A DNA stretch of 64,000 nt from positions 496,001 through 560,000 of the forward strand of contig NZ_AP024714.1 in assembly GCF_033126985.1 (NCBI RefSeq). The letters run 5' to 3'. This stretch comes from Methylomarinovum caldicuralii. Lineage in GTDB: Bacteria > Pseudomonadota > Gammaproteobacteria > Methylococcales > Methylothermaceae. A program made the translations under genes and the position numbers. The notes under the pieces are model-generated. The model saw only the letters and a list, made by a program, of their open reading frames with translations. It searched no databases and had not been told where the DNA came from. Of this stretch, positions 31,601 to 54,682 are shown one piece after another; the stretch's first letter is position 1; every line of letters starts with the position of its first letter.

Positions 31601-31740
31601 TGCACGTCCGACAGATCCGGCACCGCATCCAGGGGCACCCCCCGCAGTCCCTGAAGCCCCCAGAAGGCCGCCAGCGCGGTCAGCAGCAGGGTCGCCAGGC
31701 GGTGGCGGGCGCACCACGCGATCACCCGTTCAATCACCAT
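28660..31740 (-). pseudogene. CusA-like HME-RND heavy-metal efflux pump, interrupted by an in-frame TGA
   Basis: Read through, the gene encodes about 1025 residues, normal for CusA/CzcA pumps: early [14 protein letters not shown] motif, GGIAVAVGAMVDAAIVMVENVHR in TM4, and a Met-containing TRLEMLATGIRSNLGIKVFGDD segment like the CusA metal site. Codon 921 is TGA (28978-28980), in LSVAV-stop-VGMIALAGLSAEMG within a membrane helix, where relatives usually continue without a break. The remaining 105 codons are in frame and well conserved (RLRPMLMTGLASFLGLVPI). The truncated product lacks the last membrane helices and is probably inactive. Start ATG at 31740 overlaps the adaptor gene. Confidence 0.88.
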
Positions 31741-33038
31741 GCCGCCACCCCCGCTTTCAACTTGCTCTCGGCGGCGATCAGGAACACCCCCGAAACCACC
31801 ACCATCTCCCCTTCCGCCAACCCGGACCGGACTTCGATCCAGTCGCGGTTGCGCCGCCCCGCCTCGATACGGCGAGGCTGCAGGCGGCCGTCCCCCAGAT
31901 CGAGCCGCAAGCGCACGGTCACGTAGTGGCCCGGCAGCAGCCCCCAGGGATTTTCCAGCACCAGACGCATCCGCCCGCTGCGACTCGTCTCCTCTACCCA
32001 CGGATAGACGTAATCCACCCGGGTCTTCCAGCGGCGTTGGGGCGGGCCGGGCAACACGACCTCGGCCGCCATGCCGGCGCGGACCTGATCCAGCCACGGA
32101 GGATAGATCGCCGCCTCCACCCACAACCGGGACAGATCGGCCAGCTGCAGCAGCGTCTGCCCGGCGCGGAAACCGCTGCCGGCCGGCAACGGCTCACCGA
32201 GCACGACCCCGTCAATGGGCGCTTGCAGCCGCACCGTCTCCTGAATCCGCCCGCGCCGCAGCAGGGATCGCACCCAGTCCGCCGGCAACCCCCAGCGTCG
32301 CAGGCGGCTGTGAACGCCGGCCACCAGGGTGGCGCTGCCGCGGGCGGCGAGCAGTTCCTCCTGGGCCGAGATCAGTTCCGGACTGTAAATAGTCATCAGA
32401 GGCTGGCCGCGGCGCACCGGCTGGCCGGCGGTATCGGCAACGAGGGTTTCTATCCAGCCCCCGAAGCGCGGGGCGATGGCGACCACCCGGCCGGGATCGG
32501 GTTTCACCGCCCCGGGCAGACGCAGGGTCACCACCAGCGGGCGGCGTTTCACCGGGGCGCTGCGGATGCCGATGAGCTGGCGCCGCGCCGGGTCCACCCG
32601 GATGGTGCCCACCGGGCTGACCGCCGTGCCGCAACTGCTGCAGCGGATGCCCTTGCGGCCGGTGGCCAAGTCAAAAGTGAGGCGGGCCTTGCCGGCCGGT
32701 CCTGCGATCTCCACCGTCAGGGGCCACTCCCCGGCCATGGAGGGGCGGAACTCTCCCTCGTAGCGCCCCGGCCCGGTTTCGCGCATCTGCGCCGGCGCGT
32801 ACATGGTGGGCATCGCCCCCATGGCCGGCATCACGGCCACTGCCTTGAGACAGGCTCCGGTCACCGGCCGGTCCGCCCGGTCACGAATCCACACCGTCAC
32901 CCGATTGGGTCCGACCCTGGGGGTTTCCGGTTCGACCACCACCTTGACCTGATAGGGTCCGGCAGGCAGAAAGCCCTTGTCCGCCGCCCATCCCGTCCCC
33001 AGCGCAGCGAAAATCAGCAGCCACCAGAGCCCCCTCAT
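31734..33038 (-). CDS. RND efflux periplasmic adaptor (CusB-like) with N-terminal FixH/YtkA-like domain
   Basis: 434 residues. Signal peptide to about residue 18. Residues about 25-125 form an Ig-like domain of FixH/YtkA type with a Met-rich loop (MPAMGAMPTM, 70-79). A Cys pair (CSSC, 133-136) links to the CusB-type adaptor core: barrel-sandwich start (GAVKPDPGRVVAIAPRFGGWIETL), alpha-hairpin (PELISAQEELLAARG) and beta-barrel to the end. Met and Cys residues fit copper or silver. Its ATG overlaps the restored TolC stop (ATGA), its end the cusA start by 7 nt. Confidence 0.9.
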   Translation of the reverse strand: MRGLWWLLIFAALGTGWAADKGFLPAGPYQVKVVVEPETPRVGPNRVTVWIRDRADRPVTGACLKAVAVMPAMGAMPTMYAPAQMRETGPGRYEGEFRPSMAGEWPLTVEIAGPAGKARLTFDLATGRKGIRCSSCGTAVSPVGTIRVDPARRQLIGIRSAPVKRRPLVVTLRLPGAVKPDPGRVVAIAPRFGGWIETLVADTAGQPVRRGQPLMTIYSPELISAQEELLAARGSATLVAGVHSRLRRWGLPADWVRSLLRRGRIQETVRLQAPIDGVVLGEPLPAGSGFRAGQTLLQLADLSRLWVEAAIYPPWLDQVRAGMAAEVVLPGPPQRRWKTRVDYVYPWVEETSRSGRMRLVLENPWGLLPGHYVTVRLRLDLGDGRLQPRRIEAGRRNRDWIEVRSGLAEGEMVVVSGVFLIAAESKLKAGVAAW

Positions 33039-34272
33039 GGCGCCACCTCCCCGCCGCTGACCCGCGCCAGGGCCGCCAGGCGCTGCAGATGGTCACGGCG
33101 GCCCGCGCCAGTTGCAGGCGCACCGCGATCCACTCCTTCTCCGCCGTCAGCAGATCGAGAAAATCACCGCTGCCGGCAACGTAGGCCGACTTCGCCGCCG
33201 CCAGGGACTGGCGCGCCAACGGCAGCAGCCGGGTGCGGTACAGCCGGATCGTGTGCCGGCTTTCCCCGACGCGGTCGTAGACGTCCTGCAGGTCCTCAAG
33301 GACTTGCGCCCGCCGCTGCCGCAGCCGTGCCTCCAAACGCAGGGTCTCGGCCCGGGCCTGATCGAGGCGGGCGCGGCGCCGCCCCGGCAGGGGGATGTTG
33401 ATGCTGGCGCCGAGGGTGAGGCGTTTGTGCGTGTCCGTCCACAGGCTGTTGTAACCGCCCCCCAGGGTGAAATCGGGCCAGAACGCCCGCCGTGCCAGCT
33501 GCACGCGCCGGTGGGCGGCCTCGAGACGGGCGGCCAGCGCCCGCAACCGGGGGTCGGCCGCCAGCGCCCTGGCGCGCAGCTGCGCCAAGGCGGACAGGTC
33601 CTGCGGAGGCGGCAGCTCGCCCGGCGGGGGCAACGGCGCGCGAGGATCGCGCAGCAGCAGAGTGTTGATACGGGTACGCACCTCCCGCCGGCGCCGCTCT
33701 AGAACCAAACGGCGGTGATCCCGCAGCGCCAGTTCCACCCGGGCATGCAGGGCGTCCTGGCGTGAAGCCCTTCCGCTGGCGTAACGGACTTCCGCCAGCT
33801 GCTGCAGACGTTCGAGTCGCTTCCGGTCCTCGCCGTCGAGCGCCAGGGCCCGATGCACGAACACCCAGTCGGCAAAGGCGCGCCGTGCCGCCTCGGTCAG
33901 AGCCAACCGCGCCTCGGCGACCGACTGGCCAACCGCCTCGGCCTCCCGGGCCGCCGCATCCCCGCGCAGGGCGAGCTTGCCGGGCCACGGCAGCTTCACC
34001 GCCAGGCTGGCGGTCTGGCCGAAATCCAGCTGTGGTTCACCGACAGTGCCGGGAGCGAAACCGTAGGACACCACCGGGTCATCGAAGGTGCTTTCCTGGG
34101 CGATGCGTGCCCGGGCGGCGGCCCAGGCGGCGCGCATCGCCGGCAGATCGGGATTGCGGGCCAGCACCTCGCGGACCAGTGCCGCGGGCGTCAGCGGCCC
34201 GTCGAAGGGATCGGCCCAGGCATTGGCACCGGCCAGGGCCAAGAGGAAAAACGGGAACAGGGGATGAAGCAT
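33035..34272 (-). CDS. TolC-family outer-membrane efflux protein with 3' frameshift
   Basis: About 412 residues if corrected. Signal peptide MLHPLFPFFLLALAGANAWA; two repeated TolC/OEP halves of long amphipathic helices (e.g. LALTEAARRAFADWVFVHRAL and LPLARQSLAAAKSAYVAGSGDF). Near 33093-33096 (about residue 392) the frame shifts: as read, it runs on to 32881 in a nonsense tail over the adaptor gene. Adding one G restores DHLQRLAALARVSGGEVAP and a stop that overlaps the adaptor ATG as ATGA. A real deletion or a sequencing error is possible. Confidence 0.85.
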
Positions 34273-34775: not shown

Positions 34776-35135
34776 TCACGCCGCAGCGTAATGAGCGATC
34801 ATCCGCACCACCTGTCCCCGCTCATCCAGACGCATGAATTCGGCTGCATGGGCGCCGTCCTGGTTGGCATAGCCGAGCACCAGGCTGGCATCCCCCAAAA
34901 ACACGTGTTCCAGACGGAAATGCAAGTTGGGATAACGCGCCAGCCCTTCCCGGAAATAGGCGGCCAGCGCCGGCTTGCCGTGGACATCCGCCCGCCCGGT
35001 CAGGCGGGCGGCGATCGGGGAGGTAACGTGCACGTCCTCGGCGTAATGGCCCAGGATGCGCACCAGATCGCGGGCGTTCCAGGCGGCGATCCAGTCATGG
35101 GCGAAAGCGGTGGCGGTTTCAGGGGTGAGCGTCAT
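34776..35135 (-). CDS. SnoaL-like / NTF2-fold protein
   Basis: 119 residues, single NTF2-like domain: helical start (ATAFAHDWIAAWNARDLVRILGHYAEDVHVTSP), then beta strands ending VRMIAHYA. Such proteins are small hydrolases, isomerases or ligand binders; there is no clear catalytic residue to choose among them. The start overlaps the end of the CDF transporter gene by 17 nt, so it is cotranscribed with it. Confidence 0.85.
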   Translation of the reverse strand: MTLTPETATAFAHDWIAAWNARDLVRILGHYAEDVHVTSPIAARLTGRADVHGKPALAAYFREGLARYPNLHFRLEHVFLGDASLVLGYANQDGAHAAEFMRLDERGQVVRMIAHYAAA

Positions 35136-36297
35136 GGGTGTGCTTCCTGCCTGTCCACCAGGCGGCCAGAACGGCGACCAAAGCCAGACCGTAGGCCGTC
35201 CATTCGTAATGGGACCAGCGCCGCGGGGTCTTCAGGTCTGACAGCCAGGTCTGCCAGTCGCCGCTGAGATGATAGCGCCAGGCTAGTCCCGCCGTCAGCG
35301 CCAGCAGCGCCAAGGCCCATCCCAGCGCCGCCCAGGGGAAAGGCACCCGAGCGTGGCCGTGATCCTGGGCATGGTTGGGCTGACCGCAGGCTTCGTGATT
35401 GGCCAGACAGGCCGACACCGTTTCCGGCGTCGCCAGCTCGAACTCCAGGGTGGAATGGCCGATGTGGTAACGTTCCTCCAGCCGCCGTTTGAGCCGCTGC
35501 TTGATCGCCTCGATGCGGGAAGCGTCGTCGGGATCGATGACCACGTGGGCCTCCAGGGAGCGGCGGTGCTCGTCGATTTCCCACACGTGGACGTGATGCA
35601 CGCCGCAGACGCCTTCCACGCTCTCCAGGGTATGGATCAGCTCCGCCAAGTTGATGTCGGCCGGAGTGCTCTGCATCAGGATACGGATGGTGTGTTTCAT
35701 CTCCACCCAGCCGTGGCGCAGCACGTAAGCGGCGATCAGCACGGTACAGACGGGATCCGCCAGATGCCAGCCGTAGCGGATGACGAGGGTGCCGGCGACG
35801 ATCACCGCCACCGAGCCCAGCGCGTCGGCGACGTTGTGCAGAAAAGCGGCGCGGATGTTGGCGCTGTGCTTGGAACCCGCATAGGTGAGCAGGGCCGTGG
35901 CCACATCCACCACCAGGGCGAAGGCGCCCACGTACACCACCGTCCATCCCTCAATGGGCTGGGGATTGACGAAGCGCAGCAGCGCCTCGTAGATCAGATA
36001 CAGGCCGATGAGCAGCAACGTGGTCAGATTGATGAGCGCCCCGATCAGCTCGGCGCGCTGATAACCGAAGGTGCGCCACTGGTCCGCCGGCCGCTTGGCG
36101 ATCCACCGCGCCACCAGCGCCACCGCCAGGGAACCGGCGTCCGCCAGGTTGTGCAGGGCGTCGGCCACCAGCGCCAGGCTGCCGGAGAGGATCCCCCCCA
36201 CCATCTGCACCACCGTGAGCAACACGTTGACCAGCAGCGCCCAGATCAGGCGGGTTTCGTGGACGTCGCCGTGGTGGTGATGGTGATGATGCGCCAT
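35119..36297 (-). CDS. Cation diffusion facilitator transporter (CzcD/ZitB-DmeF type)
   Basis: 392 residues, proton-coupled divalent-cation exporter. His-rich N-terminus (seven consecutive His after MA), six-TM core with the two HxxxD metal sites: DALHNLADAGSLAVAL (TM2) and LHNVADALGSVAVIV (TM5). Cytoplasmic ferredoxin-like domain about 210-305 with HVHVWEID and HIGHSTLEFE. Unusually it continues about 80 residues beyond, with two more hydrophobic helices and a final His-containing tail. Substrate Zn, Co or Cd is plausible, not proven. Confidence 0.92.
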   Translation of the reverse strand: MAHHHHHHHGDVHETRLIWALLVNVLLTVVQMVGGILSGSLALVADALHNLADAGSLAVALVARWIAKRPADQWRTFGYQRAELIGALINLTTLLLIGLYLIYEALLRFVNPQPIEGWTVVYVGAFALVVDVATALLTYAGSKHSANIRAAFLHNVADALGSVAVIVAGTLVIRYGWHLADPVCTVLIAAYVLRHGWVEMKHTIRILMQSTPADINLAELIHTLESVEGVCGVHHVHVWEIDEHRRSLEAHVVIDPDDASRIEAIKQRLKRRLEERYHIGHSTLEFELATPETVSACLANHEACGQPNHAQDHGHARVPFPWAALGWALALLALTAGLAWRYHLSGDWQTWLSDLKTPRRWSHYEWTAYGLALVAVLAAWWTGRKHTHDAHP

Positions 36298-36392: not shown

Positions 36393-37961
<1,569 letters not shown>

Positions 37962-37985
37962 GGATGTGAAATCAATTTTCGTTGG

Positions 37986-38004
37986 TTTGAAATCTGATTT
38001 CAAA
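37986..38004. promoter_or_regulatory. Perfect 19-bp palindrome, likely activator-binding site
   Basis: TTTGAAATCTGATTTCAAA: 9-bp arms around a single T, in the divergent region 25 bp before the regulator ATG and about 50 bp before the -24 element. Related half-sites GAATCAAACC (38026-38035) and GATTCAAACC (38092-38101) lie nearby. AT-rich in a GC-rich context. Confidence 0.75.
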
Positions 38005-38054: not shown

Positions 38055-38070
38055 TGGCATGGTGGTTGCT
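38055..38070 (+). promoter_or_regulatory. Sigma-54 (-24/-12) promoter
   Basis: TGGCAT-GGTGG-TTGCT matches the TGGCAC-N5-TTGCA/T consensus at all but one base, with a preceding C as usual. Predicts transcription from about 38080, 40 nt before the ATG at 38120. CTGGCAT also occurs as a direct repeat at 38041-38047. Confidence 0.8.
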
Positions 38071-38119: not shown

Positions 38120-38770
38120 ATGAACGACTACGCAGACCGTCCCCCTCTCGATCCCCATCCTTTGAGCGATTACGTCGCCTGGGCCGGGCGTCGCAACCGC
38201 GACCCCATCCTGGCGACGCTGAAGAGCCTGTTGCCGGCCGACAGCGGCGAGGTGTTGGAGCTGGCCAGCGGCAGCGGGATGCACATCAACTACTTCGCGC
38301 CCCATTTCCCCCATCTGACCTTCCAGCCCTCGGACCGCAACGATGAAACCTTCGACCACATCCGCAAACTGCGCGACGAGCAGGGAAACCGGAACGTGCG
38401 CGATCCGATCGTGCTCGACCTGATGGCGCCGGACACCTGGCCCCGGGAAGGCAGCTACCGGGCCATGTTCTGCATCAACGTGTTCCAGGTGGCACCGGTG
38501 AGCATCGCCGAGGGCATGATGGCCTGCGCCGCCTCGCTGCTCGATGAAGCGGGCTTTTTCATGGTTTACGGCCCCTTCAGCGTGGACGGGCGCTTCACCA
38601 CCCCCTCCAATGAGGAATTCCATTGGATGCTGCGCTCGGCCGGAGTCCCGGAATGGGGCCTCAAGGATGTGGCCGACCTGCGCCTGGCCGCGGAAGCCCA
38701 GGGATTGCGGCTGGCGGAGCAGCTCGACATGCCCGCCAACAATTTCTCCCTGATCTTCCGGCGGGCATGA
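38120..38770 (+). CDS. DUF938 family SAM-dependent methyltransferase-like protein
   Basis: 216 residues. Class I methyltransferase fold with SAM-binding motif VLELASGSGMHINYFAPHFP (about 48-67), an acidic end of strand 2 in QPSDRND, and the DUF938 pattern CINVFQVAPVSIAEGM and PSNEEFHWMLR. Substrate unknown. ATG at 38120 follows GGAGG at good spacing; an upstream in-frame start would lie in the promoter. First gene of the sigma-54 operon; its stop overlaps the SDR start (ATGA). Confidence 0.9.
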   Translation: MNDYADRPPLDPHPLSDYVAWAGRRNRDPILATLKSLLPADSGEVLELASGSGMHINYFAPHFPHLTFQPSDRNDETFDHIRKLRDEQGNRNVRDPIVLDLMAPDTWPREGSYRAMFCINVFQVAPVSIAEGMMACAASLLDEAGFFMVYGPFSVDGRFTTPSNEEFHWMLRSAGVPEWGLKDVADLRLAAEAQGLRLAEQLDMPANNFSLIFRRA

Positions 38771-39495
38771 AGCCGGCTGCCGTGGTGGTGGGCGTCGGCC
38801 CGGTCCAGGGACTGGGAGCCGCCCTCGCCTACCGTTTCGCCCAGGCGGGGCTGACGGTGTTCCCGGTCGGCCGTACCGAGGCCCGGGTGCGCCGGGTGGC
38901 CGGGGACATCGAACAGCTCGGCGGCCGCGCCAAGGCGCTGGTCGCAGACGCCACCGTGCCTGAACAGGTGGAGACACTGTTCACCCAAATTGCGGATCTC
39001 GGATACGTCCCGGAGCTGGTGACCTGCACCGTGGATCTCAACCTGAAGGCTCCGCTGCTGGAGACGGCGCCGGAGGACTTCGAGGCCCTGTGGCGGGCCA
39101 ACTGCTTCGCCGCCTATCTGGTGGCCCGGGAGGCGCTGCGCCGGATGCTGCCGAGGCGGCGGGGCACCCTGATTCTGACCGGCGCCAGCGCCTCGCTGCG
39201 GGCGCGTCCGCCCTTCACCGCTTTCGCCGCCGCCAAGTTCGCCCTCCGGGCCCTGGCCCAGGGGCTGGCGCGGGAATACGGCCCCCGGGGCATCCACGTG
39301 GCCCACGTGATCATCGATGGCGTCCTGGACGGCGAGCGGGCCCGGCGGCGGTTTCCGGAACTGGTGGCGGTCAAGGGTGATTCCGGCCTGACCCGCCCGG
39401 AATCGGTGGCCGAGCTCTACTGGCAGCTGCACTGCCAGCCCGCCGATGCCTGGACCCATGAACTGGACCTGAGACCGGCGACGGAGCATTTCTGA
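38767..39495 (+). CDS. Short-chain dehydrogenase/reductase with Phe at the catalytic Tyr position
   Basis: 242 residues, Rossmann fold. Cofactor region VVVGVGPVQGLGAALAYRFA (5-24) followed by VGRTEAR, suggesting NADP. The catalytic segment reads GASASLRARPPFTAFAAAKFAL: Ser and Lys are recognisable but the YxxxK Tyr is Phe. I recall SDR subgroups with this FAAAK form and IHVAHVIIDG; they are poorly characterised. May bind rather than reduce its substrate. Coupled to DUF938 upstream; DUF1326 starts 1 nt after the stop. Confidence 0.88.
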   Translation: MKPAAVVVGVGPVQGLGAALAYRFAQAGLTVFPVGRTEARVRRVAGDIEQLGGRAKALVADATVPEQVETLFTQIADLGYVPELVTCTVDLNLKAPLLETAPEDFEALWRANCFAAYLVAREALRRMLPRRRGTLILTGASASLRARPPFTAFAAAKFALRALAQGLAREYGPRGIHVAHVIIDGVLDGERARRRFPELVAVKGDSGLTRPESVAELYWQLHCQPADAWTHELDLRPATEHF

Positions 39496-39496
39496 C

Positions 39497-40105
39497 ATGA
39501 GCGAAACCATCGACTGGTACCTGGAAGGCGAATACCTGGAAAGCTGCAACTGCACCACCGTCTGCCCCTGCATCTGGCTGCAGCCCCCCAGCGAGGGAGA
39601 ATGCAAGCTGCTGGTGGGCTGGCACATCCGCAAGGGCCGTTACGGAGCCACCGACCTGGCGGACCGCAACGTCGCCCTCGCCTGCTATGCCGACGGCCCC
39701 ATGCACGAGGGCGGCTGGCAGGTGGCGCTGTACCTGGACCAGCGCGTCGATGCCGACCAGTGGCTGGCGCTGGAAAAGATCTTCGGCGGCCAGGCAGGCG
39801 GCCAGCCCGCCCTGCTGATGGGGCTGGTGGACAAGGTGCTGGGCATCCACCTGGCCGACATCCGCATCGACGGCGAGGGCCGGCGCCGCCGCCTGACGGT
39901 GGCCGGGGTGGCCGAAACCGAGATCGAGGCGCTCGAAGGCATCCGCGGCGGTCCGCCCACCATCGACAACCCGCCCCTGTGCGTGGTATCCAGCCATCCG
40001 TCGGTGGTGGCCCGTTCGCAACGCTATCGTTACGAAGATGCCCACTTCAGCTGGCAGTTCTCGGGGCGCAACGCCTTCTATTCCCCCTTCATCTACCGGC
40101 CATGA
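39497..40105 (+). CDS. DUF1326 domain protein with CxCx3CPC motif
   Basis: 202 residues, no signal peptide. The N-terminus carries the family Cys motif, C17-x-C19-x3-C23-P-C25 (SCNCTTVCPC), suited to metal or Fe-S/thiol chemistry. The remaining sequence is mixed alpha/beta with LYLDQRVDADQWLALEKIFGG and ends YRYEDAHFSWQFSGRNAFY. Function unknown. Overlaps the DUF2182 gene (ATGA); this pair is frequently adjacent in genomes, arguing for a soluble-membrane partnership. Confidence 0.9.
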   Translation: MSETIDWYLEGEYLESCNCTTVCPCIWLQPPSEGECKLLVGWHIRKGRYGATDLADRNVALACYADGPMHEGGWQVALYLDQRVDADQWLALEKIFGGQAGGQPALLMGLVDKVLGIHLADIRIDGEGRRRRLTVAGVAETEIEALEGIRGGPPTIDNPPLCVVSSHPSVVARSQRYRYEDAHFSWQFSGRNAFYSPFIYRP

Positions 40106-40671
40106 ATGGGTCATTCATCCAGACCGCAGGGCTCTGGCTGGCGGCCATGGCGCTGATGATGCCACCGATGGCGCTGCCGACCCTGACCCTGCTGCGGCGC
40201 GCCTGCCGCAGTCCGGCGCTGGCCTGGGGATTCGCCGGGGGTTATGCTGGCGTTTGCCTGGGCTTCGGCCTGCTGCTGGCAGGGGTACAACCGGCATTGC
40301 GTTCGGCGGGCTGGCCGCAGCCAGCGGCGGCGATCCTGCTGCTGACCTCCGGGCTGTATCAGTTTTCCGCCTGGAAGGCGGCCTGTCTGCAGCGCTGCCG
40401 CTCCCCCCTGAGGCAGCTGCTGGCGCTGCGGCAACCCGGCTGGCAGGGCGGCCTGGAACTGGGGTGGCGGTATGGCGCCCATTGCCTCGGCTGCTGCTGG
40501 GCGCTGATGCTGACGATGCTGGGGGCGGGAATGATGACGCCGGCGGCCATGCTGGCCATCACCCTGCTGCTGGCCGGCGAGCGGCTGCTGGCTTTCGATC
40601 CCCGAACTGTGGCCCACGCCAACGGCATCCTTCTGGTAATCTGGGCGCTGTTGACGGGAACACCCCCCTAG
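40102..40671 (+). CDS. DUF2182 integral membrane protein
   Basis: 189 residues, five or so membrane helices. Shows DUF2182 hallmarks: [15 protein letters not shown] in the first helix, Met-rich, and [19 protein letters not shown] in the fourth, with paired Cys and Met residues likely to coordinate a metal. Described in databases only as a predicted metal-binding membrane protein. ATG at 40102 overlaps the DUF1326 stop. Could transport or insert copper or another soft metal (inference). Confidence 0.9.
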
Positions 40672-40682
40672 AGGAGAACCCC

Positions 40683-41093
40683 ATGATGAAACGCATACTG
40701 ACACTGGCCAGTCTGGCGCTGCTGATCGCCACGACGGCGTGGGCGGCCGGCATGCCCCAACGGGACGTGCTGCTGGCCCGCCCCGTGACCCTGCCGGACA
40801 CCCATATCGTCACCCGGGTGATCCGGGTCACCTTCCCGCCCGGATTCCGCACCCCGGAGCACATTCACAAGGGCCCCGGGCCCCGTTATGTGCTCTCGGG
40901 AGAAATCCGCATCATCGACAAGGAAGGCACCAAAATCTACCGCCAGGGACAGGTGTTCTGGGAAACCGGCAAGCCGATGGTGGCGGAAAACGCCGCCGGC
41001 GAGACGGTTCTGTTGATCTTCGAGATGGCGCCCGAAAAGCAGGCAGAATCCACGCCGCGCCGTCGCAAGATCGTCATCCGACCACAACGATAA
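40683..41093 (+). CDS. Secreted cupin-domain protein
   Basis: 136 residues. Signal peptide [21 protein letters not shown]; the mature part is a single small cupin barrel with [25 protein letters not shown] (two His of cupin motif 1) and [11 protein letters not shown] before motif 2, whose usual His is not obvious. Basic C-terminal tail ([12 protein letters not shown]). GAGGAG 8 nt before the ATG. Periplasmic, in an operon with two Cys-rich putative metal proteins. Ligand unknown. Confidence 0.88.
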
Positions 41094-41113
41094 CTCACCA
41101 GAGGAGAACCGAC

Positions 41114-41692
41114 ATGAGCAAGATCGTCGAAGAAGTCCTGAAAGCCAACGAACAGTATGCCGCCCCCTTCGACAAGGGCGACCTGCCGATGCCGCCGGCG
41201 CGGCACTTCGCCATTCTCACCTGCATGGACGCCCGCCTCGACCCGGCCAAGTACGCCGGCCTGTCCGAGGGCGATGCCCACGTGATCCGCAACGCCGGCG
41301 GACGGGCCAGCGACGACGCCATCCGCTCCCTGGTGATCTCCTACAAGCTGCTGGGCACCCGGGAATGGTTCGTAATCCATCACACCGACTGCGGCATGGA
41401 GACTTTCACCGACCAGATCATGGAGAACCTGCTCGCCAGCAGCCTCAAGACCGCCCAGCTGACCGAGGAGGGCTGGAAGGACGTGGGCGAAGGCCCCGGC
41501 TCGCCCTGGGGCAAGTACATCCGCTGGCTCACCATCGAAAACCAGAAACAGAGCGTGGTCGATGACGTGGTGCGGATCAAGTCCCACCCGTTGGTGCCGG
41601 CGGAAATTCCGGTCTACGGTTACATCTACGACTGCAAGACCGGACGCCTGATCGAAGTGCCCGAAGCCACCGAGGCCGGCCGGGCCCGGTAA
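41114..41692 (+). CDS. Beta-class carbonic anhydrase
   Basis: 192 residues, cytoplasmic. Interconverts CO2 and bicarbonate. Zinc ligands C37 (TCMDARLDP, with the D39/R41 dyad), H90 and C93 (VIHHTDCG) are all present; IRNAGGR follows the family pattern. It belongs to the short beta-CA group. GAGGAG precedes the ATG. Last gene of the sigma-54 operon, followed 23 nt later by a strong terminator. Why a carbonic anhydrase is tied to DUF1326/DUF2182 is unclear. Confidence 0.93.
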
Positions 41693-41714
41693 GCCGCAAG
41701 GCACCATAAGACGG

Positions 41715-41742
41715 AAAAGGCCGGGAAACACCCGGCCTTTTT
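41715..41742 (+). terminator. Rho-independent terminator after the sigma-54 operon
   Basis: AAAAGGCCGGG-AAACA-CCCGGCCTTTTT: an 11-bp perfect stem, 5-nt loop and T-run. The strongest terminator seen in the window. Confidence 0.93.
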
Positions 41743-41767
41743 CCTTTCCGCCGCCGGTTGTCGCAAA

Positions 41768-42685
41768 ATGACCGGGTTTTCACCCAACCGCGAGATGCCA
41801 ATGCTGGACTGGCAACACGAACTTCTGGTCCATGAGATCCCCATCCGGCTGGCGGCCTTCACGGCGGTGCTGACCCTGATGGCCCTGTGGGAAACCCTGG
41901 CCCCGAGGCGGCACTGGCATCATCCCCGTCCGCTGCGCTGGCTTAACAATCTGGGACTGGCGCTGCTCAACAATCTGCTGGCGCGGGCGCTGTTTCCGAT
42001 GGCGGCGGTGGGGGTGGCCGCCTTCACCGAACGTCACGGCTGGGGGATGCTCGCCCTGACGTCCCTGCCGGCCTGGGGGCGGGTGATCCTGTCCGTGGTG
42101 GCGCTGGACCTGGTCATCTACCTGCAGCACGTGATGTTCCACGCCCTGCCGACACTGTGGCGCCTGCACCGGGTCCATCATGCCGACGTGGATTTCGACG
42201 TCACCACCGGCATCCGCTTCCATCCGCTGGAAATCCTGCTGTCGCTGGGAATCAAAGCGGCAGCCGTCCTGCTGCTGGGAGCGCCGGTGGCGGCGGTGAT
42301 CGTATTCGAGGTGCTGCTCAACGCCACCGCGATGTTCAATCACGGCAACGTCCGCCTGCCCCGGAAGCTGGACCGGATACTGCGCTGGTGGGTGGTCACC
42401 CCGGACATGCACCGCGTCCACCATTCGGTGGCCGATGACGAGGCCAACTGCAACTTCGGCTTCAACCTCCCCTGGTGGGACCGGCTGCTGGGCACCTACC
42501 GCGACCAGCCCCGCCGCGGTCACGAGGTCATGACCCTCGGGATCCACGGCATCCGCCGCCGGCGCCATATCCTGTGGCTGCCGGGGATGCTGCTGTTGCC
42601 TTTCAACGCGCCGGTGGGTGGCTATGTCATCAACCGCCGGGCTGGGAACCCGTCCGGACGGCGGAAACTCAAGGCAGATATTTGA
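41768..42685 (+). CDS. Fatty acid hydroxylase / sterol desaturase superfamily membrane protein
   Basis: About 305 residues, di-iron integral membrane hydroxylase. Four to five hydrophobic segments and the His clusters expected of the family: HVMFH and HRVHH (about 119-140), RFHPLE, FNHGN and MHRVHHS. Substrate (fatty acid, sterol, hopanoid or carotenoid) cannot be told. Start uncertain between ATG at 41768, 41798 and 41801. Lies after the terminator, so it is probably transcribed separately. Confidence 0.9.
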   Translation: MTGFSPNREMPMLDWQHELLVHEIPIRLAAFTAVLTLMALWETLAPRRHWHHPRPLRWLNNLGLALLNNLLARALFPMAAVGVAAFTERHGWGMLALTSLPAWGRVILSVVALDLVIYLQHVMFHALPTLWRLHRVHHADVDFDVTTGIRFHPLEILLSLGIKAAAVLLLGAPVAAVIVFEVLLNATAMFNHGNVRLPRKLDRILRWWVVTPDMHRVHHSVADDEANCNFGFNLPWWDRLLGTYRDQPRRGHEVMTLGIHGIRRRRHILWLPGMLLLPFNAPVGGYVINRRAGNPSGRRKLKADI

Positions 42686-43013
42686 TGGCGGCCACCACCA
42701 GACCGCCGACGGTGAGGGTGAGGGCGAAGGACCAGCGCATGAAGCGATCGATACGCTCGGTCAGTCGTTCGAAGCGGGTATCGATCTGGGCGAAACGCTT
42801 CTGGCTGTACTCGATTATCTGCTCGAAGCGCTTGTCCATTTGCTCGAAACGTTTGTTCGTGTCCTCACGCATCTCTTCGAAGCGCTTGTCCATCAGGCGG
42901 AACCCTTGCTCCATCAGCTCCCGCTGGTGCTTGAGTTCTTCCTCCACGCGGACGATTCGATCCCGCAATTCCAGATCGTAACGGACCGTTCCGGCCGGAA
43001 GGCGGGCATCCAC
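42669..43013 (-). CDS. Short coiled-coil protein with C-terminal membrane anchor
   Basis: 114 residues from a GTG at 43013. A charged coiled coil with repeated MDKRFE/QMDKRFEQ/IDTRFERL heptads (about 30-90) ends in one membrane helix (ALTLTVGGLVVAAIKYL). Same architecture as the 5617-6225 gene without its perfect repeats. In the same frame, upstream codons encode EDLEQLRRLIREEV and are preceded by MPFA and a TAG stop (43053-43055), so the original N-terminus may have been cut. Convergent with and overlapping the hydroxylase by 17 nt. Confidence 0.7.
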   Translation of the reverse strand: MDARLPAGTVRYDLELRDRIVRVEEELKHQRELMEQGFRLMDKRFEEMREDTNKRFEQMDKRFEQIIEYSQKRFAQIDTRFERLTERIDRFMRWSFALTLTVGGLVVAAIKYLP

Positions 43014-43650: not shown

Positions 43651-44934
43651 ATGAAACCCCATTGGTGGCTCGGCCTGATACTGATCTTCGGTATCGCCCG
43701 GGCCGACACGACCGACGCGCTGAGCCTGGAACAGGCCCTGGCACAGGCAGAGCGCCGCAATCCGTCCCTGGCGGCGATCCGCGCCCGCTATGAGGCGCTC
43801 AGGGCGGTACCGGACCAGGCCGGTTCCCTGCCGGATCCGGAGATCAGCCTCAACGCCCTGAACCTGCCGGTCGATACCTTCGACATCCCCCAGGAGGCCA
43901 TGACCCAGTTGCAGCTGGGAATCAGCCAGAAATTCCCCTTCCCCGGCAAACTGAAACTCAAGGCCGAGGCGGCCGAATGGGAGGCCCGGGCCGCCGGCGA
44001 CGACGTGGAGGAATGGCGGCTGCGCCTGCGGCGCGACGTGGAAAGCCTGTGGTGGCGGCTGTTCTATCTCGACCGCGCCCTGGAAATCATTTCCCTCAAC
44101 CAGGATCTGCTGCGCCAGTTCGTCGAGATCGCCCAGACCAAATACAAAGTGGGACAGGGACTGCAGCAGGATGTGCTGCTGGCCCAGCTGGAACTGTCGC
44201 GGCTGCTCGACCGGGAACTGCAACTGCAGGGGCTGCGGGCGCAGGAAGCAGCCCGGATCAACGCCCTCATCGACCGCCCGGCTAATTCCCCGGTGCAACT
44301 ACCCCCCAGCGCTCCCCGGCAGCTGCCGGAAGCGGCCGCGGAAGCCCGGCTGTTCACTTTGGCGGAGCACACCCGCCCCCTGTTGGCGCGGGTGCGCAAA
44401 CAGATCAAAGCCGCCAAGACCCGGGTCGCGCTCGCCAAGAAAGACTTCCTCCCGGATTTCAAACTGGGGGCCACCCACGGTTTCCGCAGCGGCCGAAATC
44501 CGGACGGCTCCAGCCGTACCGATTTTCTGAGCCTGAGGCTGAGCATGAGCGTGCCGCTGTATTTCGCCACCAAGCAGGCCAGGGCGGTGGACCAGCGCCA
44601 GAGCGAACTGATCCGCGAGCGGTTCCAGTGGCAGGACACCTGGAACCGGGTCCGCGCCGTAATCTCGGCGGCCCTGGCCGATTACCGCCGCGCCCGCGAC
44701 CAGGTGGCGCTGTTCGACCGGGGCATCATCCCCCAAGCCCGCCAGACGGTGGCCTCGATGCTGGCCGGCTATCAGGTGGGCAAGGTGGATTTCCTCAATC
44801 TGGTCAGTGCCCAAATCACGCTCTACAACTACGAGATCCAGTACTGGAAGACCCTGGCCGAAGCACGCCAGGCGCTGGCGGATCTGGAAGCCGCCGTCGG
44901 CAAACCTGTCACAAGCCAAGAAGGAGACAAATGA
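43651..44934 (+). CDS. TolC-family outer-membrane efflux protein (CusC/CzcC-like)
   Basis: 427 residues. Signal peptide to about residue 18; OEP repeats with LSLEQALAQAERRNPSLAAI at the N-terminus and long coiled helices (LLRQFVEIAQTKYKVGQGL; IIPQARQTVASMLAGYQVGK). Forms the outer-membrane duct for the adaptor and pump encoded next. Stop overlaps the adaptor start (ATGATG). Confidence 0.93.
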   Translation: MKPHWWLGLILIFGIARADTTDALSLEQALAQAERRNPSLAAIRARYEALRAVPDQAGSLPDPEISLNALNLPVDTFDIPQEAMTQLQLGISQKFPFPGKLKLKAEAAEWEARAAGDDVEEWRLRLRRDVESLWWRLFYLDRALEIISLNQDLLRQFVEIAQTKYKVGQGLQQDVLLAQLELSRLLDRELQLQGLRAQEAARINALIDRPANSPVQLPPSAPRQLPEAAAEARLFTLAEHTRPLLARVRKQIKAAKTRVALAKKDFLPDFKLGATHGFRSGRNPDGSSRTDFLSLRLSMSVPLYFATKQARAVDQRQSELIRERFQWQDTWNRVRAVISAALADYRRARDQVALFDRGIIPQARQTVASMLAGYQVGKVDFLNLVSAQITLYNYEIQYWKTLAEARQALADLEAAVGKPVTSQEGDK

Positions 44935-46271
44935 TGCCGTGGAAATGGATCGCGATCGTGCTGATCGCCTTGAGCGTGGGGCTGGGTTCCGGCTACCGGC
45001 TGGCTTCCCGCCAACCCGAAACGGCAACGTCCGTCAGCGCCGGAGGCTGTGAGCCCATGTTCTACCGCCACCCCATGAACCCGGCCATTACCTCCAAGAC
45101 CCCCGCCAAGGATGAGATGGGCATGGACTACATTCCCGTCTATCCGCCCGGCTGTCCCGGTGCTGCGGCCGAAGCCAGCGGCCCGCCGGGCACCGTCGTC
45201 ATCGACCCCACCGTGGTCCAGACCATTGGCGTACGCACCGCCAAGGTGGTCCGCCGCGACTTCTCCCACCCCATCCACACCGTCGGCCGGGTCAGCTACG
45301 ACGAAGACCTGCTCGCCCGCCTCCATCCCAAGACCGAGGGCTGGATCGAAAAACTCTACGTCAGTGACACCGGCGCCTTCGTCGCCCGCGACGCCATGCT
45401 CCTGAGCCTCTATTCCCCGCAACTGGTGGCCAGCGAACAGGAATATCTGCTGGCCTTAAAGAGCCTGCGGCTGCTGAAAGACAGCCCCTTCAAGGACATC
45501 AGTCGCGGGGCCCGTCAACTGGTGAAAAGCGCCCGCGAGCGGCTGGAGCTGCTGGACGTGCCCGAGCACCAGATCCTCGAACTGGAGCGAAGCGGCCGGA
45601 TCATGAAAAGCCTCCACATCCATTCGCCTTTCGACGGCTACGTGGTCCACATAGGGGTGCGCGAGGGCCAGTACGTCACCCCCCAGACCGAGCTGTATCT
45701 GATCGCGGATCTGAGCAAGGTCTGGGTCTATGCCGACATCTACGAATACGAACTGCCCTGGGTGCGGGTGGGCGATCCGGCGGAGATCACCCTGACCGCC
45801 GTCCCCGGACGGGTGTTCCACGGGCAGGTGGTCTACGTCTACCCTTACGCCGATCCCAAGACCCGCACCATCAAGGTTCGCCTTGAGTTCGACAATCCCG
45901 ACCTGACTCTGAAGCCGGAACTGTTCGCCAACGCCACCCTCCACACCCGCCCCAAAACCGGCGTGCTGGCCATCTCCAGCGAGGCGGTGGTGCGCACCGG
46001 CCTCAGGGATCATGTCTTCGTGGTCAAGGGTCCGGGCCGGTTCGAACCGCGCATCGTCGAGCTGGGCGTTCCCGCCGACGGCTGGGTCGAGGTCCTGGCG
46101 GGGCTTTCCGAGGGCGAGGAGGTGGTGGTCTCCAGCCAGTTCCTGATCGACTCCGAATCCAGACTGCAGGAGGCGCTGTCCAAGTTCACCGAGCCGGCGC
46201 GGCAGAAGATGGAGAAGATGCCGGGAATGAAGGGCATGGACGGCATGCAGCATGGAGGCAGCCATGATTGA
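44931..46271 (+). CDS. RND periplasmic adaptor with N-terminal heavy-metal-binding domain (CusB-like)
   Basis: 446 residues. N-terminal membrane anchor or signal (WIAIVLIALSVGLGSGY), a heavy-metal-binding domain at about 42-72 (MFYRHPMNPAITSKTPAKDEMGMDYIPVY pattern, Met/His-rich), then the CusB adaptor core with VVIDPTVVQTIGVRTAKVVRRDF, alpha-hairpin PQLVASEQEYLLALKSLRLL and beta-barrel. Met-rich C-terminus (MEKMPGMKGMDGMQHGG). Points to Cu(I)/Ag(I). AAGGAG lies upstream; start at 44931 or 44934. Confidence 0.94.
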   Translation: MMPWKWIAIVLIALSVGLGSGYRLASRQPETATSVSAGGCEPMFYRHPMNPAITSKTPAKDEMGMDYIPVYPPGCPGAAAEASGPPGTVVIDPTVVQTIGVRTAKVVRRDFSHPIHTVGRVSYDEDLLARLHPKTEGWIEKLYVSDTGAFVARDAMLLSLYSPQLVASEQEYLLALKSLRLLKDSPFKDISRGARQLVKSARERLELLDVPEHQILELERSGRIMKSLHIHSPFDGYVVHIGVREGQYVTPQTELYLIADLSKVWVYADIYEYELPWVRVGDPAEITLTAVPGRVFHGQVVYVYPYADPKTRTIKVRLEFDNPDLTLKPELFANATLHTRPKTGVLAISSEAVVRTGLRDHVFVVKGPGRFEPRIVELGVPADGWVEVLAGLSEGEEVVVSSQFLIDSESRLQEALSKFTEPARQKMEKMPGMKGMDGMQHGGSHD

Positions 46272-49200
46272 GAAAATCATTTCCCTCTCCCTGCGCGAGC
46301 GCTTCCTGGTGCTGCTGGCAACCGGGCTTCTCCTGGGGGCCGGGATTTGGGCGCTCAGGACCATCCTCCTGGACGCCATCCCCGACCTTTCCGACGTCCA
46401 GGTGATCATCTTCACCGAGTATCCGGGCCAGGCGCCCCAGATGGTGGATGACCAGGTCACCTATCCCCTGACCACGGCGATGCTGGCAGTGCCCAAAGCC
46501 AAGGTGGTGCGCGGCTATTCCTTCTTCGGCTACTCCTTCGTCTACATCATCTTCGAGGACGGCACCGATCTGTACTGGGCCCGCTCGCGAGTACTGGAAT
46601 ATCTCAACTATGCCAGCAAGCGACTGCCCCCGGGCGTGACGCCCTCCCTGGGGCCGGACGCCACCGGGGTCGGGTGGATCTACGAGTACGCCCTGGTGGA
46701 CAAAAGCGGCAAACACGATCTGGCAGACCTCCGCTCGCTCCAGGACTGGACCCTGCGCTATCCCCTCCAGACCGTCCCCGGGGTGTCCGAGGTGGCCTCC
46801 ATCGGCGGCCACGTCAAGCAGTACCAGGTGGAGGTCGATCCCAACGCCCTGTTGGCTTATCGTCTACCCCTGGCCAAGGTCAAACAGGCCATTGCCCGCT
46901 CCAACAACGACGTCGGCGGCAGGCTGATCGAGATGTCCGAGACCGAGTACATGGTGCGCGGCCTGGGTTACATCAAGACCCTGGATGATCTGAAAAGCGT
47001 CCCGGTGGGGGTGGACGAGAACGGCACCCCGATCCGCCTCAAGGATGTGGCCGACGTCCATCTCGGGCCGGAGCTGCGGCGGGGACTGGCGGAGCTGAAC
47101 GGCGAGGGGGAGGTGGCCGGCGGCATCGTGGTGATACGCTTCGGCGAGAACGCTCTGGAGACCATCCGCAAGGTGCGGGAAAAGCTCGAGGAACTCAAAG
47201 CTGCCCTGCCGGAGGGGGTGGAGATCGTGCCGGTGTACGACCGTGGCGATCTGATCGAGCGGGCGGTGGCCACCCTCGAAACCGCGGTGGGCCAGCAGCT
47301 GGTCATCGTTAGCCTGGTCATCGGCCTGTTCCTGCTCCACGCCCGCTCCACCCTGGTGGCGGCCATCAGTCTGCCCCTGGGCGTCCTGGGGGCGTTCGTG
47401 CTGATGCGCTGGCAGGGGATCAGCGCCAACATCATGTCCCTGGGGGGAATCGCCGTGGCCATCGGCGACATGGTGGACGGCGCCATCGTCATGGTGGAAA
47501 ACGCCCACAAGCATCTGGAACGGGCCGAACGGGAAAAGGGCGCGCCCCTGGCCGCCGCCGAGCGCTGGCAGGCGATCGGAGCGGCAGCGCGCGAGGTGGG
47601 GCCGGCGTTGTTCTTTTCCCTGCTGGTGATCATGGTGGCGTTTCTGCCGATCCTGGCGCTCCAGGCCCAGGAGGGGCGGCTGTTCCGACCGCTGGCCTTC
47701 ACCAAGTCCTACGCCATGCTGGCGGCGGCGGTCCTGACCGTGACGGTGGTGCCGGTGCTGCTCGGCTATTTCGTCCGCGGCCGCATTCTGCCGGAGGCGC
47801 AAAACCCGGTGGCCCGCGCGCTCCATGCTCTCCACCGGCCGCTGCTGCGCGGGGCGATGCGCTGGCGGGACCTCACCCTGGCGCTGCTCGCTCTGGTGCT
47901 GGCCTCCACCCTGTATCCCTTCTCCCGGCTGGGGAGCGAGTTCATGCCGCCTTTGGACGAGGGGGACATTCTCTACATGCCCACCACCTTCCCCGGCATT
48001 TCCATCACCAAGGCCCGTGAACTCCTGCAGCAGACCGACAAGATCCTCAAAACCTTTCCCGAAGTCCATCACGTCTTCGGCAAGGTGGGGCGGGCCGAAA
48101 CCGCCACCGATCCGGCCCCCCTGTCGATGATCGAGACCACGGTCAGGCTCCAACCCCGGGACCAATGGCCCGATCCGGCCAAGACTACCCGGGAGCTGAT
48201 GGCGGAGATGGACAGGGCGATCCGCTTTCCCGGCCTGGCCAACGCCTGGACCATGCCGATCAAAACCCGTATCGACATGCTTTCGACCGGGATCAAGACA
48301 CCGGTCGGCATCAAAGTATCCGGCCCGGATCTGAACGAACTGCAGCGGCTTTCCGAGGCCATCGAGCAGGCCATGAAGACGATGCCGGAGACCCTGTCGG
48401 CCTTCGGCGACCGGGCCGTGGGCGGCTACTACGTGGATTTCGACATCGACCGCTTCGAGGCGGCCCGCTACGGCCTTACCGTCGGCGACGTCCAGGACGT
48501 GATCCAGAGCGCCATCGGCGGCATGAACATCACCTGGACCGTGGAGGGACTGGAGCGCTATCCGGTCAACTTGCGCTACCCCAGAGCCTTCCGCGACAAC
48601 CTGGAGATACTCAAGCGGGTGCTGATTCCCACTCCCACCGGCGCCCAGATCCCGCTGTCCCAGGTGGCGGACCTGAAACTGCGGCGCGGCCCGCCGTCGA
48701 TCAAGAGCGAGGACTCGCGTCCCAACGCCTGGATCTACGTGGACATCAAGACCTCGGACATCGGCGGGTTCGTGGCCAAGGCCAAACGGGTGCTGGCCGA
48801 ACAGGTCAAAATCCCCCCGGGCTATACGGTGAGTTGGTCGGGCCAGTTCGAGTACATGGAGCGGGCCGCCAAAAGGCTTAGGGTCATCATTCCGGTCACC
48901 CTGGGGCTGATCTTCCTGCTGCTTTATTTCACCTTCGGCAACTTCATCGAACCGCTGCTGGTGATGCTGACCGTTCCCGTCGGTCTGGTGGGCGGCATCT
49001 GGCTGTGCTGGGGGTACGACTTCAACCTGTCGGTGGCGGTGGTGGCGGGTTTCATCGCCCTGGCCGGAACCGCCGCCGAAACCGGTGCGGTCCTGCTCAA
49101 ATACATCGACGTGGAGGTGGAATCCCGCCGCCGGGCCAAGGGAGCGCCCCTGGATCGGGAGGAAATCCTGGCGGCGGTGGAGGAGGCTACGTCGCTCCGG

Positions 49201-49419
49201 GTGCGGCCGGTGGTCATGACCGCCGTCACCACCATTCTGGGACTGGCGCCAATCTTCTGGAGCACCGGCACCGGAAGCGACGTGGCCCGCCCCATCGCCG
49301 TGCCGGTCTTCGGCGGCATGACCACGGTCATGATCGCCACCCTGCTGGTGTTTCCGGTGCTCTACAGCCTGGTGTTGCAGTGGCAGGAACGGCGTCAGAG
49401 GGAAGCGACGACGCCCTGA
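46264..49419 (+). CDS. CusA-like HME-RND heavy-metal efflux pump
   Basis: 1051 residues, intact. Proton-driven inner-membrane pump. Motifs: [24 protein letters not shown]4 [20 protein letters not shown], and the CusA-type site [22 protein letters not shown] with the conserved Met in IDML. The C-terminus contains [21 protein letters not shown], the segment in which the 28660-31740 copy has its stop codon. ATG at 46264 overlaps the adaptor end by 8 nt. Probably exports Cu(I)/Ag(I). Confidence 0.95.
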
Positions 49420-49486
49420 GGAACGCTGGGCGGATCAGGGAAGCGGGGGCAGGGTCCATTCATTCAATCAGGAGAAGCGGCAGAAG

Positions 49487-51844
<2,358 letters not shown>

Positions 51845-51919
51845 TCGGATCACCGTCGTCTTGTTCCCACCTCCAGGCGATGCTAAGCTTCCCGGACGCA
51901 ATCTTGACCGGCCCGTAAA

Positions 51920-52282
51920 TTGAACCTGCTGCGCCTTCACGTCACCCTGTTTTTCTGCCTGCTGCAGGTGTTCGCGCCCCTGCTGCACGCCCACGTGGGG
52001 GCGGAGGCTTCGCCGACGGTGGTTCACCTGCCCGGCCTCGAGCATATCGCTACTTACGGACAGTCGGCCGCCCCGGCCGAAGGGGTGCTGGTGTGCGCTG
52101 CTAAAGGCGTATGCCCAAGAACAGTGGTCTTCCCCTCCGAATCGGCTGTCGTCCTCGGCAGGCGCCCCTCCCATCCTCCACCGATCCGCACGAACCCGCT
52201 GCCCATCCGGAGACTAAGCCTCTATTCCATCTTCCATCCGCCTTCCCCCCCGAGTCGCGCCCCGCCCACACGGGCGTCCTGA
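51920..52282 (+). CDS. Putative small secreted protein preceding third RND cassette
   Basis: Up to 120 residues from a TTG. A hydrophobic N-terminus (LHVTLFFCLLQVFAPLLHAH) suits a signal peptide; it then contains HVGAEA and VVHLPGLEHI and two Cys, and ends proline-rich. Sequences of the type LHAHVG...HLPGLE occur as short ORFs before tolC-like genes of metal pumps. No ribosome-binding site is evident, so the start and the gene itself are uncertain. Confidence 0.45.
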   Translation: MNLLRLHVTLFFCLLQVFAPLLHAHVGAEASPTVVHLPGLEHIATYGQSAAPAEGVLVCAAKGVCPRTVVFPSESAVVLGRRPSHPPPIRTNPLPIRRLSLYSIFHPPSPPSRAPPTRAS

Positions 52283-52345
52283 TACCCTTGCGGCTTTCCG
52301 GCCCGCTTTGCCGGAAGCGATTCAACTTCCCGACAGGTAAGAACC

Positions 52346-54681: not shown

Positions 54682-54682
54682 C

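Follow-up and report, generated by a model that had tools for sequence, protein, structure and literature searches.

A putative sigma-54-controlled operon pairs DUF1326 and PpoB2 proteins in methane- and ammonia-oxidizing bacteria

Results

The window analyzed here is a 64,000-nucleotide stretch of Methylomarinovum caldicuralii (contig NZ_AP024714.1, positions 496,001 to 560,000; the host genome is a single contig of 2.69 Mb). It carries, at 38120–41692 on the forward strand, a six-gene operon encoding in order a DUF938 protein, a short-chain dehydrogenase/reductase (SDR)-like protein, a DUF1326 protein, a membrane protein of the PpoB2 family, a cupin and a β-carbonic anhydrase (CA). Together with a divergent activator gene, palindromic activator sites, a −24/−12 promoter and a terminator, these genes very probably constitute one sigma-54 operon or regulon. 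This type of control is already known from MopR-like regulators, while we found no description of the regulon or of its parts list. We infer that the operon may be an inducible protection program of bacteria that carry copper monooxygenases.

Sigma-54 control region and gene organization

The activator (36393–37961, reverse strand) combines a MetOD1/V4R-like sensor (MetOD1, E-value 1.8e-09), an AAA+ domain whose translation contains GAFTGA (Sigma54_activat, 4.1e-69) and a Fis-type helix-turn-helix (HTH) domain (HTH_8, 1.1e-07). Between this gene and DUF938 lie an imperfect upstream activator site, TGAA-N7-TTCG (37967–37981, read directly from the sequence), a palindromic activator site, TGAAATCTGATTTCA (37988–38002), and a perfect −24/−12 promoter on the forward strand, TGGCATGGTGGTTGCT (38055–38070), the latter two being identified by sequence and conservation. 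The window has one TGAA-N7-TTCA site, with its imperfect copy 21 bp away. The promoter is the sole match to TGGCAY-N5-TTGCW in the 64 kb, where 0.08 matches are expected and at least one was seen in 8 of 100 shuffles, and rpoN is present in the host genome. An intrinsic terminator hairpin with a T-run (41713–41743, forward strand; −23.1 kcal/mol, z −5.4) follows the last gene; it is absent from the output of a simple terminator scan. An FA_hydroxylase gene at 41768 was considered as a further operon member and rejected, as it sits behind this terminator.

Spacing along the operon is tight (−4, +1, −4, +11 and +20 nt). ATGA overlaps join DUF938 to the SDR gene (38767–38770) and DUF1326 to PpoB2 (40102–40105), the SDR and DUF1326 genes are separated by 1 nt, and gaps of 11 and 20 nt precede the cupin and CA genes, respectively. 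An earlier sequence-only reading of the window had the first four genes linked by start–stop overlaps, which holds at two of the three junctions, the SDR–DUF1326 junction being the exception. Its six open reading frames and their identities are borne out by Pfam matches for all six, and its proposal of a single operon is supported; it had overlooked the divergent activator, the promoter, the palindromic sites and the terminator.

A scan of the genome collection with 13 DUF1326 proteins gave 178 loci, and counts of named loci below refer to the best 80 of these. A full-length activator orthologue adjoins the operon in 37 of the 80. Promoters and sites were counted only at loci with DUF938 and at least 150 nt of upstream sequence, which gave 65 of 81 regions with the window included; the regions classed as having no full adjacent activator include those of L052, L070 and L099, where a contig end truncates the activator. 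With a full adjacent activator, the promoter scored 14 or 15 of 15 in 29 of 37 regions and at least 13 in all 37, compared with at least 14 in 6/28 and at least 13 in 10/28 of the other regions; in shuffled upstream regions the fractions were 0.005 at a score of at least 14 and 0.035 at a score of at least 13. The palindrome TGAAR-N5-YTTCA occurs in 32/37 activator-linked regions versus 5/28 of the others (shuffles of the 37 regions: mean 0.13, maximum 2), and paired TGAA-N7-TTCA sites 20 bp apart are found in 14 of the 37. By analogy with its family, the single-component activator with its V4R/MetOD1-type sensor would bind the palindromes ~70–100 bp upstream of the −24/−12 promoter and, once bound, would activate it and drive DUF938, the altered SDR, DUF1326, PpoB2, the cupin and the clade-D β-CA-like enzyme.

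Recurrence and distribution of the module

Of the 80 named loci, 72 contain a module-type DUF1326, and DUF938, SDR, DUF1326 and PpoB2 are all present in 64 of these 72. The eight incomplete loci are L040, L054, L074, L080, L093, L095, L096 and L100, several with matches at contig ends; L080 has no DUF938 though it is uncut. The neighborhood survey that the sequence-only reading had proposed as a check therefore refutes a one-off assembly of unrelated genes, an explanation in favor of which we found no point and to which we assign a negligible probability. Within the six-gene set, the cupin and CA are variable members. Among the best 80, the closest relative of the window's DUF1326 is in a Methylothermaceae metagenome-assembled genome (MAG), L031, with identities to the window of 83% for the activator, 85% for DUF938, 84% for the SDR, 87% for DUF1326, 74% for PpoB2 and 77% for the cupin; its CA gene is cut by the contig end.

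The 42 methanotroph-type loci include a full activator in 31, a β-CA in 22 and a cupin in 7. The 30 ammonia-oxidizer loci have DUF938 in 30, SDR in 30, PpoB2 in 29, a full activator in 6, and β-CA and cupin in none. Ammonia oxidizers were assigned from their record titles, except L057 (titled "Betaproteobacteria"), which was counted with them because it lies in a clade otherwise made up of ammonia oxidizers; five complete loci were placed by inference (L057, L055, L039, L094 and L099) and the others by title, with L039 and L094 placed by PmoA matches equal to those of G166 and G044 of the window's order, and L099 by a PmoA-type match. L055 (genome G264), titled Methyloversatilis universalis, appears to be Methylococcales, with activator matches at the same contig coordinates as in G078, which belongs to the window's order. 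In FastTree phylogenies of DUF1326, DUF938 and SDR with simple rooting, the ammonia oxidizers fall in each case into two separate clades of 26 and 4 loci, which suggests that transfer took place more than once. Some loci have additional genes: L071 has, ~5 kb upstream of its main module genes, a second DUF938 with the activator, two tandem DUF1326 genes precede PpoB2 in L102, and in 13 ammonia-oxidizer loci (L034, L057, L065 and others) a gene of one family follows PpoB2, the L034 member being a DUF3422 protein (PF11902, 1.4e-155).

A match to AmoA/PmoA was found in 19 of the 30 module genomes tested (of 72), and the 11 without one are bins or MAGs by title. Two wider samples were taken, 251 genomes of the window's order and 369 genomes of its class. 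In the order sample, for which overlaps were taken from genome lists copied by hand, PmoA matches were found in 207 genomes, the activator in 101 and module DUF1326 in 55; every one of the 55 DUF1326 genomes also matches the activator and 48 have a PmoA match, the remaining 7 being multi-contig drafts, while in 46 genomes the activator occurs but DUF1326 does not. In the class sample, 32 genomes have some DUF1326 match, and this reaches module level (at least 356 bits) only in two Methylococcales genomes, the window's being one of them, and in G609. Three AmoA-type genes are present in G609 and none in the next nine DUF1326 carriers; the G609 activator, with an adjoining gene of the subtype-B enzymes described below, lies far from its DUF938–SDR–DUF1326–PpoB2 set. 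From these distributions, the module is an accessory and patchy trait of copper-monooxygenase bacteria and is not required by them.

These counts bear on the possibility that the operon is a copper-status regulon that loads copper into particulate methane monooxygenase (pMMO), ammonia monooxygenase (AMO) or another copper enzyme. The PpoB2 family, the Cys-rich DUF1326 and the copper-monooxygenase carriers are all as this explanation would have them, yet PmoA matches (207/251) far exceed DUF1326 matches (55/251) in the order, so delivery by this operon is not required, and the activator occurs without DUF1326 in the 46 genomes. In addition, eight non-module loci (Burkholderiaceae, Rhodanobacteraceae, Anaeromyxobacter and others) carry DUF1326, with PpoB2 in 7/8 and other module genes in 0/8; in these eight genomes we found no AMO match (0/8) and no activator match. 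We consider copper delivery as the operon's purpose to be improbable, the more so than the other explanations weighed below.

Twenty activator-only loci of the order, from the 46 such genomes, were inspected. DUF938, CA and SDR are present in 8, DUF938 and SDR without CA in 4 (L167, L171, L172 and L174), CA with or without remnants of the other genes in 5 and an SDR remnant only in 1 (L168); contig ends truncate the other 2 (L170 and L175). Given these contents, DUF1326–PpoB2 appears to have been added to a core of sensor and enzyme. Activator searches in 16 ammonia-oxidizer genomes gave 7 module-level matches, 1 distant match and 8 with none, indicating that the operon can persist there without an activator.

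Proteins encoded by the core genes

DUF938 (38120–38770, forward strand, as are all operon genes) is a protein resembling S-adenosylmethionine-dependent methyltransferases (PF06080, 1.4e-55; Methyltransf_25 weakly, 0.0011). The adjoining gene encodes an atypical SDR (38767–39495; adh_short, 1.1e-28). Classical SDRs have a catalytic YxxxK motif with a Ser 13 residues before the Tyr. In the module proteins a Phe occupies the catalytic Tyr position in 71 of 71 sequences, the Lys is kept in all 71, and at the position of the Ser, 13 residues upstream of the Phe, 70 of 71 have an Ala with an adjacent Thr or Ser. Because the catalytic Tyr is replaced, function as an ordinary reductase is unlikely, and the earlier description of this protein as reductase-like is not supported in that form.

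DUF1326 (39497–40105; PF07040, 2.9e-49) has a CxCx3CPC motif, CNCTTVCPC, and additional invariant Cys/His residues, with C17, C19, C23, C25, C36 and H43 invariant in 48 aligned rows that include non-module members. This pattern makes a metal site likely. A search of viral contigs confirmed no DUF1326 relative, and sequence searches of the PDB found no relative of DUF1326 or, from a single-sequence query, of the activator sensor, so structural models were made for both. The DUF1326 model (predicted local distance difference test score, pLDDT, 90.5) has an acetoacetate-decarboxylase (ADC)-like fold, matching MppR, Swit_4259 and ADC with VIA Z scores of 10.2–12.2 (rmsd 3.3–4.3, 155–164 aligned residues; next fold Z 8.8). 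Foldseek matches to this fold had E-values of 3e-5 to 4e-4 and probabilities of 0.99–1.00, with template modeling (TM) scores of only 0.40–0.44. ADC uses a Schiff-base Lys. None of the invariant or near-invariant columns in the 48 DUF1326 sequences holds a Lys, and the protein differs further from this fold group in its Cys-rich N-terminal segment; a working ADC was therefore rejected as a candidate function.

PpoB2 (40102–40671) belongs to PF09948 (1.3e-38; 133.3 bits versus a cut-off of 28.7), formerly DUF2182 and now named PpoB2 "Copper chaperone". Its HCLGCCW contains the CxGCCW motif, and C.GCCW is found in the consensus of 78 rows. The sole studied member transfers copper to the tyrosinase PpoB1 in Marinomonas mediterranea (PMC2855505), and copper binding or transfer by the window protein is predicted from this family relationship. 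The Marinomonas PpoB1–PpoB2 operon is similar in having a membrane protein that serves an enzyme of its own operon with copper; here the neighbor is DUF1326 instead of a tyrosinase, control is of the sigma-54 type and there are extra genes. No tyrosinase domain was found among the ten scanned proteins of the operon and its neighbors, the rest of the genome lying outside this search. The two Cys motifs pointed out by the sequence-only reading are present, and its soluble/membrane pair plausibly handles a metal. That reading counted three domains of unknown function; DUF2182 now bears the name of a copper-chaperone family with one studied member, while our literature search found no paper naming DUF1326, DUF938 or DUF2182, PpoB2/COG5486 appearing under their own names in PMC2855505.

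The cupin (40683–41093) is small and has, by eye, a signal-like N-terminal segment; its Cupin_2 match (3.3e-06, 27.2 bits) is exactly at the Pfam cut-off.

The activator sensor domain

Three sensor Cys residues, C100, C113 and C146, are present in 38 of 40 aligned rows, and the remaining two rows have no sensor; among the 39 activator proteins collected, the two without a sensor are second copies in L072 and L065. The sensor model (pLDDT 77) matches MopR, PoxR and DmpR with Z scores of 10.3–10.8 (rmsd 3.9–4.8, 135–158 aligned residues). The window activator is like these regulators in being single-component, with a V4R-type sensor, a 3-Cys cluster, a GAFTGA-containing AAA+ domain, a Fis HTH, a −24/−12 promoter and upstream sites. 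It differs in that its sensor matches Pfam MetOD1 and had no match in the single-sequence PDB search, and in that activators of the window type adjoin β-CA/CS2-hydrolase-like enzymes and DUF938–SDR–DUF1326–PpoB2 rather than a phenol hydroxylase operon. In PMC5847659, MetOD1 is likened to HNOB, V4R and ATC hydrolase domains and is described as having the 3-Cys cluster in common with PoxR and MopR. Stand-alone MetOD1-like sensor proteins are also found in L156–L158, with PAS-type signaling-like genes adjoining, by eye, at least in L157 and L158.

The sensor fold allows phenols as ligands, and the operon might respond to aromatic compounds: promiscuous copper monooxygenases would make phenols or quinones, which a MopR-like sensor would detect and the operon would methylate or remove. 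The model scores against MopR, PoxR and DmpR, the common 3-Cys cluster, the methyltransferase-like DUF938 and the tyrosinase served by the studied PpoB2 member (PMC2855505) are consistent with such a response. Bet3, however, matches the sensor model equally well (Z up to 11.2), with V4R and H-NOX slightly lower; Bet3/TRAPP and H-NOX but not MopR are among the 50 Foldseek matches listed, and no aromatic-degradation gene was recognized by eye in the recurring clusters. A phenol response is therefore rated as unlikely, ahead of copper delivery. From the same fold similarity, haem sensing of the H-NOX kind is a candidate. A literature search on a phenol/toluene sentinel gene pair of N. europaea gave no lead.

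The β-carbonic anhydrase and its CS2-hydrolase-type relatives

β-CAs have Cys-His-Cys zinc ligands and an Asp-Arg dyad. The window enzyme (41114–41692; Pro_CA, 1.9e-11) conserves both in its CMDAR and HHTDC motifs and is of the clade-D type. It belongs to a subtype, A, with a Leu-Leu pair, which is present in the window enzyme as well as in all 30 subtype-A copies that a pattern search picked up. Among solved structures its closest relatives are CAs (5ztp, 6jqc, 3las and 1ylk), followed by carbonyl sulfide (COS) hydrolase and carbon disulfide (CS2) hydrolase.

A β-CA-like gene lies within 5 kb of 14/14 full-length activators in the class sample, ten of subtype B and four, the window included, of subtype A. 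A sigma-54-like site (shuffle p at most 0.05) is found upstream of the β-CA in 11 of 14 loci examined, the misses being L143, whose operon begins with DUF938, L153 and L154. Eight of the ten subtype-B proteins were compared and are 50–58% identical to the Acidianus CS2 hydrolase versus 28–40% to CAs. With the methanotroph copies from L038 and L089 added, the ten sequences are 48–58% identical to that hydrolase and cluster with it (support 0.957), and for the L150 protein it is the top PDB relative (163.6 bits; next 76.1). A Phe-Phe pair is present in 12/12 subtype-B genes beside related activators, including the ten of the class sample. The pair is called characteristic of CS2 hydrolase in PMC6382920, citing Smeulders 2011, and clade D is described in the literature as including enzymes that hydrolyze COS or CS2, some of which hydrate CO2 only to a negligible extent. 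The window enzyme shares its family with the clade-D CS2 hydrolase of Acidianus and COS hydrolase of Thiobacillus but differs from the former in its Leu-Leu pair and closer kinship to clade-D-type CAs. The Phe-Phe genes beside sigma-54/MetOD1 activators come from various Gammaproteobacteria (L144–L151, L153, L154, L038 and L089), and both subtypes are present in L089.

The β-CA as a universal activator partner, as the 14/14 would have it, was rejected, since the order sample has it at only 13 of the 20 activator-only loci. For activators from outside the order, the partner present without exception (11/11 in the class sample) is the β-CA/CS2-hydrolase-like enzyme and not the metal pair.

The main rival explanation is an inorganic-carbon regulon, in which the β-CA would be the core, supplying or removing CO2/bicarbonate, the sensor would report carbon or nutrient status and the rest would be auxiliary. 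According to PMC11423575, the sole clade-D CA of Methylococcus capsulatus Bath (CA1, MCA0910) is its highest-expressed CA in a gas reactor; withdrawing CO2 raises CA1 2.6-fold, and growth is severely impaired when CA1 is deleted. CA1 is conserved in methanotrophs, and these data together with the Leu-Leu pair point to CO2. Proteins deposited as CAs are also nearest to the window enzyme, and G012, of the window's order, has an activator–DUF938–CA–cupin arrangement. On the other side, the CO2 response is unspecific because all five M. capsulatus CAs rose 2.0- to 3.8-fold, and the deletion was uncomplemented, its authors allowing for effects on neighboring genes (same source). CA1, a presumed orthologue of the window CA, was studied apart from any such operon. 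CA is missing from the ammonia-oxidizer operons, and a carbon regulon does not account for the CS2-hydrolase-type partners or for the copper-chaperone relative. We regard an inorganic-carbon role as possible, though second to the reading favored below.

Genes flanking the operon

Translations of the flanking genes, read by eye, include RND-type metal efflux sets, a CDF transporter and a copper-type P-ATPase (49487–51844). These metal genes span 28978–34272 and 35119–36297 on the reverse strand and 43651–57730 on the forward strand, and since they lie on both sides, the operon is located in a metal-handling region. Short proteins with coiled-coil-like repeat units (MDKRFEQ and KEIEQVR) are encoded at 42669–43013 (reverse) and 5617–6225 (forward).

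Discussion

Four features point towards a carbon–sulfur inhibitor of copper enzymes: the tie between the activator family and CS2-hydrolase-type enzymes, the presence of a clade-D enzyme, the relative of copper chaperones and the kind of bacteria that carry the module. The reading that we tentatively rank first, ahead of inorganic carbon and then phenol, is a response, induced by a CS2/COS-like inhibitor of copper monooxygenases, in which hydrolysis would be joined to copper re-supply. The sensor would recognize an inhibitor that is small and hydrophobic, with carbon–sulfur compounds of the CS2/COS kind the most likely, and the clade-D enzyme, or in relatives the CS2-hydrolase-type enzyme that adjoins an activator of this family, would hydrolyze the inhibitor or its product. 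DUF1326 and PpoB2 would bind and re-supply copper stripped or blocked by such compounds, and DUF938 and the SDR-like protein would modify or bind a derivative.

Several observations weigh against this carbon–sulfur reading. The description of CS2 as an AMO inhibitor comes from general background and a reference title; one sentence of a paper names CS2 among possible toxicants. The window CA has Leu-Leu and is 44–49% identical to CAs versus 30% to CS2 hydrolase, and the induction of M. capsulatus CA1 on CO2 withdrawal and the growth defect of its deletion (PMC11423575) fit a carbon role. Phenols are the ligands of the sensor's studied relatives. The ammonia-oxidizer operons have no β-CA (0/30) and a full linked activator in only 6/30, 8/16 ammonia-oxidizer genomes have no activator match at all, and β-CA is missing at 7/20 activator-only loci of the order, 2 cut by contig ends and 5 uncut. 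Our literature search found no expression or ligand data on this operon. Another copper enzyme, thiocyanate dehydrogenase, has a gene cluster with a sigma-54 regulator, for which the description consulted names none of the genes discussed here.

A broader and more speculative proposal, held with less confidence than the carbon–sulfur reading itself, is that diverse Gammaproteobacteria have an undescribed family of sigma-54 regulators that sense CS2/COS-like compounds and drive enzymes of the CS2-hydrolase type. In methane and ammonia oxidizers this system might have grown into an operon that protects copper monooxygenases and includes a new copper pair, soluble DUF1326 and membrane PpoB2, the operon having moved between the guilds by gene transfer.

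Methanotrophs and ammonia oxidizers set methane and nitrification fluxes, and the copper monooxygenases on which both depend can be poisoned by small molecules. An operon that is conserved in the two guilds and can be switched on would offer a handle on how they cope with such poisons. It also provides a place to test DUF1326, DUF938, DUF2182 and the clade-D type of carbonic anhydrase, and a regulator tied to CS2-hydrolase-type enzymes would be a candidate sensor for sulfur gases.

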